From: Verrucomicrobiaceae bacterium
GTDB taxonomy: Bacteria > Verrucomicrobiota > Verrucomicrobiia > Verrucomicrobiales > Verrucomicrobiaceae
Direction: 5' to 3'
DNA: 64,000 bases
NCBI GenBank assembly: GCA_947458455.1
Contig: CANGYJ010000001.1
Location: 310,001 to 374,000 of the forward strand
Part shown: one piece after another, positions 7,080 to 18,594 of the stretch
How the letters are laid out: the number at the start of each line of letters is the position of its first letter
Numbering within the stretch: position 1 is the stretch's first letter
Notes under the pieces: model-generated
Databases searched by the model: none
What the model saw: the letters and a program-made list of their open reading frames with translations, nothing else
Told to the model about the DNA's origin: nothing
Translations under genes and position numbers: made by a program

Positions 7080-7649
7080 ATGGCCGATACAGCACCGCCC
7101 GAACTTATGACGGTTAAAGAGACTGCGGAATACCTCCGTATTCCACTTCCTACCGTCTATTACCTCGTCCAGCGCGGACAGCTCCCCGCCGTGCAAATCG
7201 GTGGTCGCTGGCGCATCAAGCGCAGCTTGTTGGACCGTGATGTGCTTCGCAAAGAAGAGGAAGGTGGCCAGCCTACCGTGCTCGTGGTGGACGATGACCC
7301 TGCCCTCCAGGCGCTATTCAAGCAGTTCCTCAAAAAGGCCGGCTTTGGCCGCCTTGTCGTAGGAACTGGCTCGGAAGCTATCGCGATGGCCAAGAAGCAG
7401 AAATTCGACTTCGTTTTCCTCGACCTCAAACTGCCGGACGTGCCAGGGGATGAGGTGTATTCCCAGTTGAAGGCACTCTACCCTGACCTGCCCATTGTGG
7501 TCATCACAGGTTACCCGGATAGCGAAATCCTGAGTCGCATTCTTTCCCATGGCCCGGTGACAGTGATCAAGAAGCCCATCGAATACGATCAACTCAATCT
7601 TGCCGTCAAACAACTTGGCCACAAAGGAGCGGAAACGGCCGAAGCCTGA
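7080..7649 (+). CDS. HTH (excisionase/MerR-like) - response-regulator receiver fusion protein
   Basis: N-term LMTVKETAEYLRIPLPTVYYLVQRGQLPAVQIGGRWRIKRSLLD (helix_turn_helix_17 type); C-term TVLVVDDDPALQALFKQFLKKAG...FVFLDLKLPDVPGDEV...VVITGYPD...VIKKPI (REC domain). Confidence 0.9.
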   Translation: MADTAPPELMTVKETAEYLRIPLPTVYYLVQRGQLPAVQIGGRWRIKRSLLDRDVLRKEEEGGQPTVLVVDDDPALQALFKQFLKKAGFGRLVVGTGSEAIAMAKKQKFDFVFLDLKLPDVPGDEVYSQLKALYPDLPIVVITGYPDSEILSRILSHGPVTVIKKPIEYDQLNLAVKQLGHKGAETAEA

Positions 7650-9088: not shown

Positions 9089-9820
9089 TCAGTATGAGGC
9101 ATTAAGGCCGCGGGTGCGGTTTTTGGTCATCGGGACGACGGTGGGGGATTCACTGACTTGGTGAAACTCGACGATGTTGGAGGTCGTCTTGCTGTCTTCG
9201 ATGAGATTGACGATTTCGATGCCTGCTCGCTCTAGGTCGTGCATGAGGGAGCGGGAGCGGGCGGTGAGGAAGGCATAGCCGAGGTAGGCGGGAATAGCGA
9301 CGACGAGGCCGAGAGCGGCGGTGATGAGGCTCTGATAAACGCCCTGGGCGACATCAGCAGGGGTGGTGAGGCCGTTTGAGGAGGAGATGCGGGTGAAGGC
9401 ATCGAGGAGGCCGATGAGGGTACCGAGCAGGCCGATGAGGGGGCCGATGTGTGCGATGGCATTCAGGAGGCTGAGGAAGCGTTCCAAACGGGGGACTTCG
9501 AGCTGGCCTGCCTCTTGAACGATTTCTTTGAGTTGCTCCCGAGGGGCGTGATGGCGGAGGAGGGCAGAGTGGATGATGCGACCAGCGGGGACGCGGGTGG
9601 CGAGGCATTCCTGGAGGGCCTCGGCGAAGTTTCGGCGGCTGATGAGGGTGGAGAGGCCGGCGAGGAATTCGCCGATGTTCATGCTGGCGCGGTGAAAGTA
9701 GGCCAGACGCTCCAGAAAGATGGCACCTGAGAGGCAAAGGCAACCAAGGAGCAACCATACAAGCGGGCCACCTTTGGAGACGAGCTCCAGCGGGCCGGTG
9801 GTGATGCTAAGGTCGAACAT
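9089..9820 (-). CDS. MotA/TolQ/ExbB proton channel family protein
   Basis: Three hydrophobic segments; IAHIGPLIGLLGTLIGLLDAF and GVYQSLITAALGLVVAIPAYLGY, family hallmarks. Confidence 0.9.
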   Translation of the reverse strand: MFDLSITTGPLELVSKGGPLVWLLLGCLCLSGAIFLERLAYFHRASMNIGEFLAGLSTLISRRNFAEALQECLATRVPAGRIIHSALLRHHAPREQLKEIVQEAGQLEVPRLERFLSLLNAIAHIGPLIGLLGTLIGLLDAFTRISSSNGLTTPADVAQGVYQSLITAALGLVVAIPAYLGYAFLTARSRSLMHDLERAGIEIVNLIEDSKTTSNIVEFHQVSESPTVVPMTKNRTRGLNASY

Positions 9821-9895
9821 AGATGCGAATAAGGCTTATAAGTAGCAAGTTTTAGGCCGGAACGGGATACTTGTAAATCGCGGATGTGCCGGGCC

Positions 9896-10357
9896 TTACC
9901 AGGCTGGCATGGCGTGGAGGGCATCGCCGAGATTTAAAGCGGGTGCCGAGGTGCGGCGGGGCTGTGTAGAGCCGGTGGCGGTGAGCTGAAAGGTGGCGGC
10001 TTGGCGGCGAACAGAATCCATATTCGCTTCAGCTTCGCAACGGACGATGAGGGCGTGCCGGTGAGGAAGGCCACGCAGGAGCACGAGGCCGCCTTCGTGA
10101 TGCTGAACGAGTTCGATGCAGTCGCCGGAGCCGCTGCGGCGTCCGAATTCGGAGGCGGCACTGAGGGTGGCATGGGCAAGGACGAGCACGCCTGCGGATG
10201 GCGGCATGGCCTCGCCAGCGGCGGTGATGAGGTGGCCGGCGCCATCGGTGACGAAAGCGGAGAGAACGCCGGGATGCTGGAGGACTAAGGAGAGCATGAG
10301 GAGTGCGGATTGATTTTGAAGAGTGTCTCGATCAGGCGGCGGCGAGGGCGGGAGCAT
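9896..10357 (-). CDS. Roadblock/LC7 (MglB-like) domain protein
   Basis: Pattern LMLSLVLQHPGVLSAFVTDGAGHLITAAGEAMPP...IELVQHHEGGLVLLRGLPHRHALIVRC; overlaps the GTPase gene by 26 bp. Confidence 0.7.
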   Translation of the reverse strand: MLPPSPPPDRDTLQNQSALLMLSLVLQHPGVLSAFVTDGAGHLITAAGEAMPPSAGVLVLAHATLSAASEFGRRSGSGDCIELVQHHEGGLVLLRGLPHRHALIVRCEAEANMDSVRRQAATFQLTATGSTQPRRTSAPALNLGDALHAMPAW

Positions 10358-11009
10358 GGCCGCTCGTCATTTCACGAGGCATGAGTGCCTGCGAGATGGG
10401 CGTGGGACTGACCGGGGCATGCGCCTGGCGGAACTGGTGGATGATGGCCTGGGAGACGGCGTTGAGTGTGGCGAGAACATTGCGTCCTCCGCGAGCATCG
10501 GCTTCAAAGCTGAGAAAGGGAACGGGGCGGCTATTGAAGAGGTACTCGAGGTAATCGACGGGGGCCGCGTTTGGCAGGTCTCGCTTGTTGTATTGCAGGA
10601 CGATGGGGAGGCGGTCAATGGAGCTGTCGTTGAGGCGGAGATTGGCCTCAAGGCTCTGAAGGGCCTGCAAATTATCCCGCTGGCGGTCCATCTGGGAGTC
10701 GGCAACAAAGACGACACCATCGGCCTGGCGCAGAACGAGCTGGAGGGTGGCGTTGTAGGTAACTTGGCCGGGGACGGTGTAGAGGTGGAAGGTGGTTTTG
10801 TAGCCCGGAATGGCATCGGCTTCGATGCTGAGGAAGTCGAAGAAGAGGGTTCGATCCTGTGCAGTGGAGAGGGAAATGAGATCGCTGCGGCCGCGAGGAT
10901 CGAGCTTGGCGTGGATTTGCTGAATGTTGGTGGTCTTACCGCACAGTGGGGTGCCGCAATAGACGACCTTAAAACTGATGGTGCGTTCGTCGTGGTTGAT
11001 ACTGGGCAT
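10332..11009 (-). CDS. MglA-type small Ras-like GTPase
   Basis: P-loop CGTPLCGKTTN, atypical G3 TVPGQ as in MglA, G4 QYNKRDLP. Confidence 0.9.
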   Translation of the reverse strand: MPSINHDERTISFKVVYCGTPLCGKTTNIQQIHAKLDPRGRSDLISLSTAQDRTLFFDFLSIEADAIPGYKTTFHLYTVPGQVTYNATLQLVLRQADGVVFVADSQMDRQRDNLQALQSLEANLRLNDSSIDRLPIVLQYNKRDLPNAAPVDYLEYLFNSRPVPFLSFEADARGGRNVLATLNAVSQAIIHQFRQAHAPVSPTPISQALMPREMTSGHAPALAAA

Positions 11010-11038
11010 GGCGGTCGTGGGGAAATCCGATGGTTGGT

Positions 11039-14000
11039 TCAGCGAAGGAGTCGGGCGAGCTCACGGGCGACGAGGGTGATCTTATCGCGAAGGCCGGTGC
11101 CGGGTTCGCCTTGATGGAGGACGCCGACGGAGACTTCGCCGGGGAAGCAGAAGGTGAGGAGTCGGCCACCCGCATTGAGCGTGAAGGTTTCAGCCCCGTC
11201 GATGCCGATAAGCGGGGCGAGGCCGCGGAGCTGGCGGGCGATGTCTGGGGCCTGCTGCTGGAAGGTTGCGGCTTCGGGGGCGGAGGGATTGGCGTGGCTG
11301 AGAACGCTGGAGCCATTGAGGCAGATGCAGGCGCTGAGGCCGGGCAGGGTGGCGAGGAGCTGGACGACGCGGGAGGCATCGAGCGAGTCATCGACGCCGA
11401 GGAGAGCACGGAGGAGGAGCTGATCGGTGTCTGTATCCAGGGCGGAAAGGCCGAGGAAGGAGGCTTTGCTCGGAGCCGCCGCTTTGGGCTGGGGAGAGAA
11501 GAACGCGGCAGGCGCTGGAGAAGGAGCAGCTTCGTCAGCCGGGGCTGGCGTAGGAGCCTGAACTGGTGAGGGGGGCAGTTTCAGCGAAGGCGCGGGAGGT
11601 GCCTCTGGTGGGGCGGTAAAGGGATTGCTGATAGGTCCGGGGGCAGGTGCTATGGCGGGTGCCAGCATGGTCCCGGTGGGGGCGTTTTCGCTGGCGGTGC
11701 TGAAGGATGCTCCAAAGAAGGCGGAGGGCTTTGGATCCGCACTGATCAGGGGAATGACGGATTCGGCCGGAGCGGTTTTGGCCTCTCTTTGGCTAGCGAA
11801 AGGCTCGATCAGGGGCTGGGTAGGCGGGGCTTGTCGGAAGAGGGAGCTTGTGGCGAAGCTGATGGGGGCTGCCGGGACTACGCCGAGCAATTGCTCGCTA
11901 CTCAGGCCGGTTGCAGCCGATGGGGCGAAGGGATCGAAGGCCTTCACCGCAGAATGGATAGGTCGGCTAGCTGCGGGAGCGGATTCCGCAGGAAGTGCAC
12001 CAAAGGCATTGAAGGCTCCCGCCAGTGGCTGAACGGAGGTCGCGAGAGTCGAAAACGCACTTTTCGGTGCCTCGAGAGCCATGGGCAAAGGAGCTGGCGC
12101 AGGTGCCGAGGCGAAAGTTTGAGCTGGTTCCTCTGGTTGCGGTGGCTGGCTGGCGAAGAGGCTATTCTGAGGGGCTGGCGTTGGAGCCAGTGTGGGGACC
12201 GTAGCTGGTGATGGAGTAAAAACTGGGCTCGTGGCTGCTGGCGGAGTGGGATTTAGGATACCTGTGGTTGTAACCCCAGGATTGCCAAAGGGCGTGAAGG
12301 TGATCGGAGCTGCCGATGCCGCAAACATGAGGCTGGCTGCGGCTGGCATCGGGGCGGGGCGCTCTGCTGGCGGAGCACTGCTAGGTGGCGAAACCACCAT
12401 TTTCGGCAACGCCATGGAAGGGGCCGGAGTGGTGATGGTGGCTAGAGCATGTGCTGGGGCGGAGGCTCCGCAGTCTTGGGTCGCCGTGAGGGCGTGGAAG
12501 ACAACATTGGAGGGGAGCTGGACCTGAACGTCTCGCTTGGCTCCGGAAAGCATGCTGCGGAAGCCCTGATCCGCTACGCCATCGAGCAAGGCGCCAAGGC
12601 TGAGGGCATACGCCCCTTTGGAAGCCTGCTCATGGAGGAGGCTGGCATCGACGCTGGTTGAAAGCCAGGCGGGCACGCACGCGGGATTGAAGCCAAGGTC
12701 ATCGGCACTGCGTCCCTGGAGAAGGGTGGCGAGGGTGAAGCGAGCTTTGCCTCCGGCAGCGCCAGGGACACCTGAAAAGACGGGTAAAGCGCCTTCCGCT
12801 GGCTGAACTGTCAATGGAGCGGCAGCAGGTATTCGATGCTGTGGCCGAGCCATAGGCAACGTTAGGCCCGTGGTCGCCATGGGTGGGCTGCTGGGAGAAG
12901 CGGTGGCGGGTGGTTCGGCGGGTTTTGCCTCGAAAAGATTCGCCATGGCTCGATCCAGCCCCGTTGTGCTGGGTTTGGCAGGTTCCGCTGAGAATGCGGG
13001 AGCCCCGACTGGAGCGGATGAAGCAAAGATCGTGGGGGCACTCGCGGCAAAAGGTGAGGCTGTGGCGCTAAACACCGGGGCGGGTTCAACGGGAGGTATC
13101 ATCTCTCCGAATGGGGAAGCGAATACCGGTGCACTCACCGCGAAAGGCGAGGCCGTGGCTGGATTTGAAGACGCCGCTGCGAACGGCGAGGCCGCTGGCG
13201 AAGCACTGGCGAAAGGCGAAGCTGGAGTTGCAGCAGCAAAGGGTGAGGCAGACGGAGCTGGTGAGGCCGCTGCGAATGGGAAAGCTGGAACCGGCTGGGG
13301 AGCTGATGCTGCGAACAGAGAGCCCGCTGGCGATGGCGAAGCGGCTCCGAAAGGTGAGGCTGGAGCTGGATAGGAAGCTGCAGCCGTGAACGGAGAACTC
13401 GATGGCGCAGGTGTAGCCGCGGCGAATGGGGAGGCCTGGGTAGGAGCCAAGCTGGCTTGGGTAAACGGAGAGCCTGAACTCGGCGGGGGGGGCGAAGCGG
13501 CTGTGGCTGCTTGCCCAAACGGCGAGGCTACTCCTGCGGCCGCAATGGAAGGCATGGCCGCAGCAAACGGACTCATCGGAAAAGCAGATGACGGCGGAGC
13601 AGTCGGTGATCTCGACGGCTCGGCTGCCGCAAAAGATGAGGCTTGGGATGCTACTGGCAATGCCGGAGCAGAGGGGCGGGTGCCTGCGATCAATGCAGAC
13701 AGCTTCGCCACGGGCAGAGCCACCGTGCGTGGCTCCTGAGGAGAGACCGGACCCTGAAAAAGGGCCGGGCAAACTCGGTAAATTTCAAATACCGGCACTG
13801 TTGGCAGTCCGCTGCGCAGGGCATTTTCCAAAAGTGCCGGCGGTAACGTCAGTGGCTGCTCAGGCGACACAACTCCACCGCGCACGAGTTCGGGTGGTAT
13901 TAGGTGAATCACATCGCCGACGGTCAGGGGCATGTTCGTGGGTGCCGCAGAGGCCATGCCAAACGGGGAAAGGCCGCTGTGGGCGTTGATGGGAGGAGCT

Positions 14001-14089
14001 TCGATAGATTCTCCAGCGCAGGTGCGAAACAAAGGGGAACCTGCCATTTGGAAAAGGGGGGCGGGAGGCTGTGCCATGGTAGCTTGCAT
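11039..14089 (-). CDS. Large Pro/Ala/Ser/Phe-rich protein with possible C-terminal Roadblock-like domain
   Basis: 1016-aa ORF; N-term LTVGDVIHLIPPELVRGGVVSPEQPLTLPPALLENAL; central SPFAAA/SPFG-type repeats; C-term LLLRALLGVDDSLDASRVVQLLATLPGLSACICLNGSSVLSHANP...GRLLTFCFPGEVSVGVLH resembling a Roadblock/LC7 fold. Confidence 0.75.
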   Translation of the reverse strand: MQATMAQPPAPLFQMAGSPLFRTCAGESIEAPPINAHSGLSPFGMASAAPTNMPLTVGDVIHLIPPELVRGGVVSPEQPLTLPPALLENALRSGLPTVPVFEIYRVCPALFQGPVSPQEPRTVALPVAKLSALIAGTRPSAPALPVASQASSFAAAEPSRSPTAPPSSAFPMSPFAAAMPSIAAAGVASPFGQAATAASPPPPSSGSPFTQASLAPTQASPFAAATPAPSSSPFTAAASYPAPASPFGAASPSPAGSLFAASAPQPVPAFPFAAASPAPSASPFAAATPASPFASASPAASPFAAASSNPATASPFAVSAPVFASPFGEMIPPVEPAPVFSATASPFAASAPTIFASSAPVGAPAFSAEPAKPSTTGLDRAMANLFEAKPAEPPATASPSSPPMATTGLTLPMARPQHRIPAAAPLTVQPAEGALPVFSGVPGAAGGKARFTLATLLQGRSADDLGFNPACVPAWLSTSVDASLLHEQASKGAYALSLGALLDGVADQGFRSMLSGAKRDVQVQLPSNVVFHALTATQDCGASAPAHALATITTPAPSMALPKMVVSPPSSAPPAERPAPMPAAASLMFAASAAPITFTPFGNPGVTTTGILNPTPPAATSPVFTPSPATVPTLAPTPAPQNSLFASQPPQPEEPAQTFASAPAPAPLPMALEAPKSAFSTLATSVQPLAGAFNAFGALPAESAPAASRPIHSAVKAFDPFAPSAATGLSSEQLLGVVPAAPISFATSSLFRQAPPTQPLIEPFASQREAKTAPAESVIPLISADPKPSAFFGASFSTASENAPTGTMLAPAIAPAPGPISNPFTAPPEAPPAPSLKLPPSPVQAPTPAPADEAAPSPAPAAFFSPQPKAAAPSKASFLGLSALDTDTDQLLLRALLGVDDSLDASRVVQLLATLPGLSACICLNGSSVLSHANPSAPEAATFQQQAPDIARQLRGLAPLIGIDGAETFTLNAGGRLLTFCFPGEVSVGVLHQGEPGTGLRDKITLVARELARLLR

Positions 14090-14735
14090 GACGAGACGGG
14101 ATTAGGGTGAAAATGACTGTGCCGCAGTGGGGAAGCGCTCGATCGACCTCACCTGAATCAGCGCACGTTCCGTGGCATCAGTGCCGGAACCACGTACATA
14201 CAGCGTTTGGAGGAAAGAGTTCATCGGCAGCCTGAACAGCCCAATTCGACACCGCTGAGGTAGCAAAGGAGCTTATTAAAGATAGAAATTATAGAAAAAA
14301 TTAACGGCATCAACTGAGATAATTAAGCTAAATTAAATATCTACTCTTGTAAATTCAACCTTTTTCTACCTCTGGGTGAAATTTTGCTACCCATGACAAA
14401 TGATGGCGCGGCTCTCAGGCACTTGGCCTGCCGATAGCCTGCTTTTCTCATGCTCCTTTTTGCCGCAGCAGATGAGCCAAGAGGCAGCGGATGCCGAGGT
14501 TTCCTTTTGTTTTCATTTTTCATCTCTGAGTCCTCTGCTCCGCTCCTGCGGCAAAAGACTTTGGAAGCTGCCGTGTGTTTTGTGCGAGAAGTGCAGTCCC
14601 GCTGGATCGGAAAGGCAACTTTCATCCAATTCCATGAAGCATGTTTTTAGTGTCTGCCACGATCTAATAAAGTAGGAGACAAGCGCCGCGTCCTGCTCAT
14701 CATCGCGGCCCTTTCCCGCCCAAGCACCTGATCTT

Positions 14736-17311: not shown

Positions 17312-17899
17312 ATGAAATGCATCTTTATCGGCGGCGGCCATGGGCGGGTGCTGCTCGAAACGCTCGAGCAGCTGCGTCCGGGCGTGGTTGTGGGTATTTT
17401 GGACTCTCAGCCCGGTTTGTAGCAGATCGCCGAGGTGCCGGTGCTCGGGGGAGGTGAGATGCTCTCCAGGCTCAAGGAGCTACATTTCACCCATTTTGTC
17501 ATCGGTGTAGGCAGTTCCCAGCCGTGCCGTATCCGGGCGGAACTGTATCTCGCCGCCCGAAAGGCGGTCTGGAGCCTCTCGGTGTGGTTCACCCGCAAAC
17601 GTTCGTCTCTCATCAGTCGGAAATGGCGGCGGGCTGTCAGATCATGGCTCGGGCCGTGGTGAATACCGGAGCGCGGCTCGGTGGTCATGTGCTGATCAAC
17701 ACCGGGTGTATCCTGGAGCATGACGTGGTCATCGGGGCGCATAGCCTCATTGGCAGCGGCATGGAGCTCGGCGGCGGCGTGCAGTTAAGTGAGAGAACGC
17801 TGATCGGTGCTGGAGTGGTGGTTCGGCAAGGCAATTCGGCTCGGTGCCCATCTGGTGATCGGGAAGCTGGATGTGCACGATGGCACGGAAATCGCATGA
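17312..17899 (+). pseudogene. Decayed sialic-acid O-acetyltransferase NeuD-family (left-handed beta-helix) acyltransferase
   Basis: MKCIFIGGGHGRVLLETLEQLRPGVVVGILDSQPGL*QIAEVPVLGGG...FVIGVGSSQPCRIRAELYLAARKA / GLEPLGVVHPQTFVSHQSEMAAGCQIMARAVVNTGARLGGHVLINTGCILEHDVVIGAHSLIGSG... / AIRLGAHLVIGKLDVHDGTEIA*; one nonsense codon and two frameshifts. Confidence 0.85.
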
Positions 17900-18594
17900 G
17901 CCGCGTCTCCCCCGCCCATCGTGTGAGCCTTTGGTGGCGGCTATTGGCCTGGGCCGGTGCCTTGGCGGGCTTGCTGGCTGCCTTTTGGCATGACTGGACA
18001 GTGCCGCTGCTCGGCATGGACCTGCGGACCAAGCCCGGCCATGTGCTTATCGAGGCTCAGGAAGCGGTGAAAGCGGCGATGAAGCTGGGCAAGCATTTCT
18101 ATTGCGAAAAGCCGCTGGCGCACACCATCGAGGAGACGCGTATCATGGCAAAGGTGGCCGCCGAGATGAAAGTGGTTGCGCAAACGGGCAACACCGGCCA
18201 TGCCAGCGAAGGTCTGCGGCTGTCGAAGGAATGGTTCGACGTCGGAGCCATCGGCGCGGTGAAGGAGGTGTATGTGTGGTCGGATCGGCCCGGCAAGTTC
18301 TGGGATTCGCAGAGCAAGCCACGGCCTGTCGAAGTGGACGGCATGCAGCTCGATCAGCCATTGGAGTTGGAACTGGTGCTTGAACTCGAAAGTGAACAGT
18401 TCGTGCCGCTTTTCATTCTGTGCGTTGATTCCATCACACCTCTTCATGAAGCCCACCTTCTTTCCGAAATCAGGCTGCCAGGTTGGCAAGAGGGGTTGAT
18501 TCTCAACTTCAATTCCGACTCGATGCGTGATGGTATCCGACGTATCAGTCTCACTCGCTCGCAAAGCCATTTCATCACGAGTTCCGAACCTTAA
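17896..18594 (+). pseudogene. Chimeric ORF: short membrane-protein start fused to an internal fragment of a Gfo/Idh/MocA oxidoreductase
   Basis: MSRVSPAHRVSLWWRLLAWAGALAGLLAAFWHDWTVPLL... then EAVKAAMKLGKHFYCEKPLAHTIEETRIMAKVAAEMKVVAQTGNTGHASEGLRLSKEWFDVGAIGAVKEVYVWSDRP (internal Gfo/Idh/MocA segment, no Rossmann N-terminus). Confidence 0.75.

Follow-up and report, generated by a model that had tools for sequence, protein, structure and literature searches.

Most of what is known about the MglA/MglB polarity switch comes from Myxococcus, Thermus and Bdellovibrio; the genes described here come from Verrucomicrobiota, a phylum close to Planctomycetes. We analyzed a stretch of 64,000 nucleotides (the window) of a Verrucomicrobiaceae bacterium (assembly GCA_947458455.1, contig CANGYJ010000001.1; C1:310001-374000 of the 5.35-Mb genome G000), whose relatives in the family include Prosthecobacter and other Verrucomicrobiaceae metagenome-assembled genomes, and focused on a minus-strand cluster encoding a large scaffold protein, an MglA-type GTPase, a Roadblock protein and an ExbB/TolQ-type channel subunit. 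In Myxococcus xanthus, MglA and the tetratricopeptide repeat (TPR) protein SgmX stimulate type IV pilus formation (PMC7519303). The presence of MglA in Verrucomicrobia is itself already known: the MglAs of the phylum have been assigned to Group 5, whose gene neighborhoods vary widely (PMC4316618). A full-text search on Verrucomicrobia MglA and Roadblock proteins found no description of the scaffold, of its link to PilB or of a de-energized ExbD.

The cluster consists of open reading frames for the scaffold (14089..11039, 1,016 amino acids), the GTPase (11009..10332, 225 amino acids), the Roadblock protein (10357..9896, 153 amino acids) and ExbB (9820..9089, 243 amino acids). The first two genes are 29 bp apart, the second and third overlap by 26 bp and 75 bp separate the last two; the gene calls reproduce exactly the codirectional order and gaps reported in a first-pass annotation of the window. 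That annotation had proposed a compact polarity or proton-channel switch with a dedicated large scaffold. The observation is confirmed, and the MglA GTPase, the Roadblock protein, the scaffold, the gene order and an ancient link to ExbB all stand, while the compact proton-channel switch is not supported. The reading that we favor, with moderate confidence, is an MglA/Roadblock polarity module, probably serving type IV pili, that lies beside the stranded exbB of a de-energized Ton-like complex.

Judged by its sequence, the GTPase (10332..11009, minus strand) is of the MglA type, as first suggested. It scores 182 bits against M. xanthus MglA over nearly the full length and matches solved MglA structures with E values of 7e-53 (PDB 6h17) to 8e-49, far stronger than the best match to a small GTPase outside MglA, an Arl protein (E 2e-5). 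The P-loop, R53, T54, Q82 and NKRD are intact, and residues G24, K25, R53, T54, Q82 and N141–D144 are invariant in an alignment of 13 MglA relatives. The motifs TVPGQ (with Q82) and QYNKRDLP, which the first-pass annotation had taken as characteristic of Myxococcus MglA, are present in the window GTPase and common to every relative aligned.

We then considered how widely the arrangement is conserved, with genomes numbered G and loci L, and with "the family" denoting Verrucomicrobiaceae, of which 59 genomes were surveyed. MglA was found in 50 of the 59, one of these (G007) holding a fragment only, and in 28 of 289 genomes across the phylum. The scaffold gene lies directly upstream of mglA in all 28 family loci whose upstream side could be evaluated, and it adjoins mglA, sometimes divergently, in most other Verrucomicrobiota loci, including those of other orders and classes. 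The neighborhood is thus conserved well beyond the strain, and because the order recurs in other genera and orders, the four-gene order is more than chance. Intact MglA was not found in 10 family genomes, and in eight of these (G003, G020, G022, G043, G044, G052, G055 and G056) the scaffold C terminus was absent as well, being retained in G048 and G007. MglA and the scaffold, lost together in 8 of 10 cases (some of the genomes being incomplete), therefore behave as a unit. In G048, the retained C terminus lies in a 374-amino-acid frame on contig C6 (L229) with no MglA gene nearby, possibly a remnant.

The scaffold (11039..14089, minus strand) had been described as a giant low-complexity protein. 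A dedicated large partner with linkers rich in P, A, S and F it is, but it is not merely low complexity, as N-terminal, middle and C-terminal folded regions are conserved among its relatives. The first region is an undescribed alpha/beta domain (approximately residues 40–138; 13676..13972, minus strand), recovered by a profile across Verrucomicrobiota and predicted by AlphaFold with a predicted local distance difference test score (pLDDT) of ~90 over the core; a fold search with this domain against the PDB gave no match. The middle region (approximately residues 430–545, same strand) is a second copy of the same family, since the N-domain profile also matches second copies in several Verrucomicrobiota. 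One low-complexity linker separates the two copies, and another precedes a C-terminal Roadblock domain (approximately residues 900–1016; 11039..11400, minus strand), which is matched to MglB by hhalign with 91% probability; of 25 members examined, 10 match Robl_LC7, the lowest E value being 3e-8. The motif M[SGA]FS[FI]R..F opens nearly all scaffold relatives. Relatives were also seen outside the class (L126:7438-9162, L125 and L124), some divergent to mglA, and in L126 a helix–hairpin–helix domain adjoins the Roadblock domain.

The third gene (9896..10357, minus strand) had been named a Roadblock partner, a claim that holds by fold and by comparison with an MglB profile, while on sequence alone the curated Pfam score is not reached (PF03259, E 0.022, 14.9 bits against a cut-off of 23). 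Against a profile of true MglB orthologues, hhalign gave 95.5% probability (E 1.4e-8), and the predicted structure (pLDDT 80.8) matches M. xanthus MglB (6izw) with a Foldseek E value of 1.2e-6 and a TM score of 0.78. In other orders, the same slot is occupied by clear MglB orthologues (E 8e-31 to MglB). Going by these models, the product is a Roadblock protein by fold and MglB-like only by position and profile, which makes it a candidate GTPase-activating protein (GAP) or regulator.

Together, the scaffold, MglA and Roadblock genes would make up the MglA/MglB polarity switch in its Verrucomicrobiota form. MglA would alternate between GTP-bound and GDP-bound forms, with the Roadblock protein as its likely GAP or regulator. 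The scaffold, which contributes a further Roadblock domain and both copies of the undescribed domain, may anchor the switch at a site in the cell. The switch would most likely act through PilB to position or activate type IV pili. In L107–L109, L137, L140, L141, L144 and L148, several of them in genomes of Chthoniobacterales type, a PilB-type ATPase and a protein with TPR and MshEN domains precede the scaffold; the ATPase of the cluster scores 671 bits against TIGR02538 (cut-off 675.65). As pilB lies within the cluster in these lineages, type IV pili are the better-supported partner process, and by analogy they are most plausibly the output of the module. The genome of the window has PilB-type and PilC-type genes of its own.

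The channel gene (9089..9820, minus strand) is a clear member of PF01618 (E 3.6e-27, 95 bits against a cut-off of 22.9) separated from its partners. In L042, L043 and L048, the order continues, according to tblastn, from ExbB to ExbD (PF02472) and a TonB-like protein, and in L108 and L141 a single strand carries TPR–MshEN, PilB, scaffold, MglA, MglB, ExbB, ExbD and TonB-like genes. The earlier statement that no TolR/ExbD partner was found downstream holds only for the window; the genome does encode such an ExbD, on contig C3 (C3:324790-325191), with no ExbB adjoining and a TonB/TolA-like gene following (both genes, C3:324790-325911, equivalent to L077:7791-8912). Because this ExbD resembles those directly after exbB in L042 and L043 (47–48% identity) and a tonB-like gene follows it, the window exbB and the pair on C3 are the halves of one set. 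A decayed exbD directly downstream of the window exbB was also sought, and none was seen in the frames read; the real partner is the one on C3. The tonB-like gene there is followed by one for a 93-amino-acid protein (family F6), for which a single membrane helix is predicted and which is rich in Cys at one end; it follows the tonB-like gene in many relatives too.

Assignment of the TonB-like protein to TonB_C by Pfam alone was weak (2 of 16 members, best E value 0.019) and was set aside in favor of a Ser-x3-His signature, and comparison of the TonB-like profile with solved structures gave no meaningful match. Of 286 genomes surveyed in the class, 78 encode relatives of it, most of them without an MglA match where both surveys sampled them. 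ExbB and ExbD orthologues are found in the identical 56 of the 59 family genomes, both being missing in G003, G020 and G049, and in most genomes having the pair it lies far from mglA. Five genomes without MglA and scaffold (G043, G044, G052, G055 and G056) have kept it. The linkage of MglA and ExbB is an ancient one that has come apart on many occasions, and the channel does not serve MglA as a dedicated effector. The window exbB would be a remnant at the ancestral position of an exbB–exbD–tonB-like operon that once followed mglA/mglB, its two companions now being on another contig.

Whether such a complex could conduct protons was assessed from residues numbered as in Escherichia coli ExbB and ExbD. 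The ExbD Asp is essential, and ExbB Thr148, Thr181 and Ser34 as well as the TonB His are conserved (PMC12215075); the ExbD(D25N) mutant is recorded as inactive (PMC11658791). Among 42 Verrucomicrobiaceae ExbD orthologues, 39 have Asn at residue 25, the other 3 have Thr and none has Asp, and the helix holds no acidic residue near that position, while other ExbD copies in the genome of the window retain Asp25. ExbB Thr181 has changed to Ser or Ala across the family and Ser34 is replaced throughout, the window ExbB having L at 34, T at 148, Q at 176 and A at 181. The Ser-x3-His of the TonB-like protein is present in 9 of 9 loci outside the family and in 0 of 22 inside. All nine loci of other orders retain ExbB Ser34 and most have Asp or Glu in ExbD; the loci of Chthoniobacterales type keep both the ExbD Asp and the Ser-x3-His. 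Outside the family, the Asp has been lost repeatedly, across several further families in the class (L249, L252, L253, L255–L257 and L259–L263). Within one genus, L250 has Asp where L253 and L261 have Asn.

An ordinary Ton energizer for TonB-dependent transport, lying near mglA by chance and passing protons via other residues, would fit the order exbB–exbD–tonB-like, the Ser-x3-His in other orders, the invariance of ExbB Thr148 and the mostly conserved Pro141 and Pro190. It fits poorly with an Asp25 lost without an acidic neighbor and kept in same-genome paralogues, and with the parallel replacement of ExbB Ser34 and Thr181 and of the TonB Ser and His, and we consider it unlikely. The dN/dS of ExbB and ExbD (~0.04–0.19, synonymous sites being partly saturated) nevertheless indicates purifying selection. 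From these sequences we infer that the Verrucomicrobiaceae complex carries no proton flow; an ordinary proton motor is unlikely for the window channel, and this envelope-spanning complex is probably passive or driven in another way, rather than being a proton-fed effector of MglA. A bolder and quite tentative proposal, to which we assign a low probability, is that the selected, proton-uncoupled ExbB–ExbD–TonB-like complex is a non-proton-driven envelope device, in some lineages switched or positioned by MglA via the scaffold. If true, a motor would have been converted into a structural or signaling link.

Several observations weigh against a pilus-directed polarity module beside a stranded exbB. 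No PilB-like ATPase lies within the cluster in Verrucomicrobiaceae, and all 59 family genomes, MglA-less ones included, have two to eight PilB/GspE-like ATPases, which makes the co-occurrence of PilB and MglA uninformative. ExbB adjoins MglA in 13 independent organisms of the class, from at least two orders, which could reflect a functional tie. MglA might then control the channel as in the myxobacterial Agl motor, so that polarity and motor would form one module whose ExbD and TonB-like protein are supplied in trans, and the intact Asp and Ser-x3-His of the Chthoniobacterales-type loci would suit such a role. We hold this to be very unlikely, given that the five genomes named above retain ExbB and ExbD after losing MglA and scaffold, that the pair lies elsewhere in most MglA-containing family genomes, that the family has lost the proton-path residues and that the third protein is TonB/TolA-like, not Glt-like. 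The first three of these points are also what sets aside the compact four-gene proton-channel switch.

The remaining difficulties concern the window copy itself. Its scaffold has no M[SGA]FS[FI]R..F motif, ~45 N-terminal residues of the relatives being missing or degenerate, and the Roadblock gene is fast evolving (dN/dS ~0.57); with both features, the copy may be weakened. An in-frame TAA (14102..14104, minus strand) lies a short distance upstream of its start codon. One could go further and regard the cluster as decaying and the module as no longer working in this strain, as the truncated scaffold and the stop codon upstream of it, the split of exbB from exbD, the fast Roadblock gene and the loss of MglA and scaffold in the related G044 would allow. 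The window MglA, however, shares 82% identity with the G040 MglA (dN/dS ~0.14), and the four genes are all long open frames, leaving decay distinctly unlikely.

A scan of the cluster found no promoter-like sites and no more terminators than in shuffled sequence, and is silent on transcript units. Elsewhere in the window, an open reading frame at 17524-18594 (plus strand) resembles, by eye, fused acyltransferase-like and oxidoreductase-like fragments, possibly gene remnants, and 7080-7649 (plus strand) encodes a small protein with an excisionase-type helix–turn–helix (PF12728) followed by a response-regulator receiver domain (PF00072).

The scaffold–MglA–Roadblock module found across Verrucomicrobiota, with PilB in the clusters of several lineages, offers a testable second model of front–rear polarity, and the family ExbDs are natural, selection-kept versions of the E. 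coli motor-killing mutation with which nonmotor roles can be asked about. The available part of the Group 5 survey covers Verrucomicrobia MglAs and does not mention the scaffold, PilB or ExbB–ExbD (PMC4316618). Like TonB–ExbB–ExbD and TolAQR of E. coli, the channel genes belong to the ExbB and ExbD families, and the TonB-like protein of other orders bears a transmembrane Ser-x3-His; unlike them, Verrucomicrobiaceae lack ExbD Asp25, ExbB Thr181 and Ser34 and the TonB Ser and His. M. xanthus AglRQS similarly has TolQ/ExbB-type and TolR/ExbD-type subunits near MglA, whereas here the third gene is TonB/TolA-like, the family ExbD has no Asp and the complex is present without MglA. The MglA–SgmX–PilB system of M. 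xanthus (PMC7519303) has its counterpart in the Chthoniobacterales-type loci, which pair a TPR protein and PilB with scaffold, MglA and MglB, although that protein ends in MshEN and is likened to SgmX as a TPR protein only, and the window cluster has no pil genes. The MglA–MglB pairs of M. xanthus and Thermus thermophilus share the nearly full-length GTPase match (Arg53, Gln82 and NKxD) and a Roadblock partner with the MglB fold; the Verrucomicrobiota version differs in the diverged, sub-cut-off Roadblock gene of the window and in a dedicated scaffold of 600–1,200 amino acids, with a Roadblock domain of its own, directly upstream.

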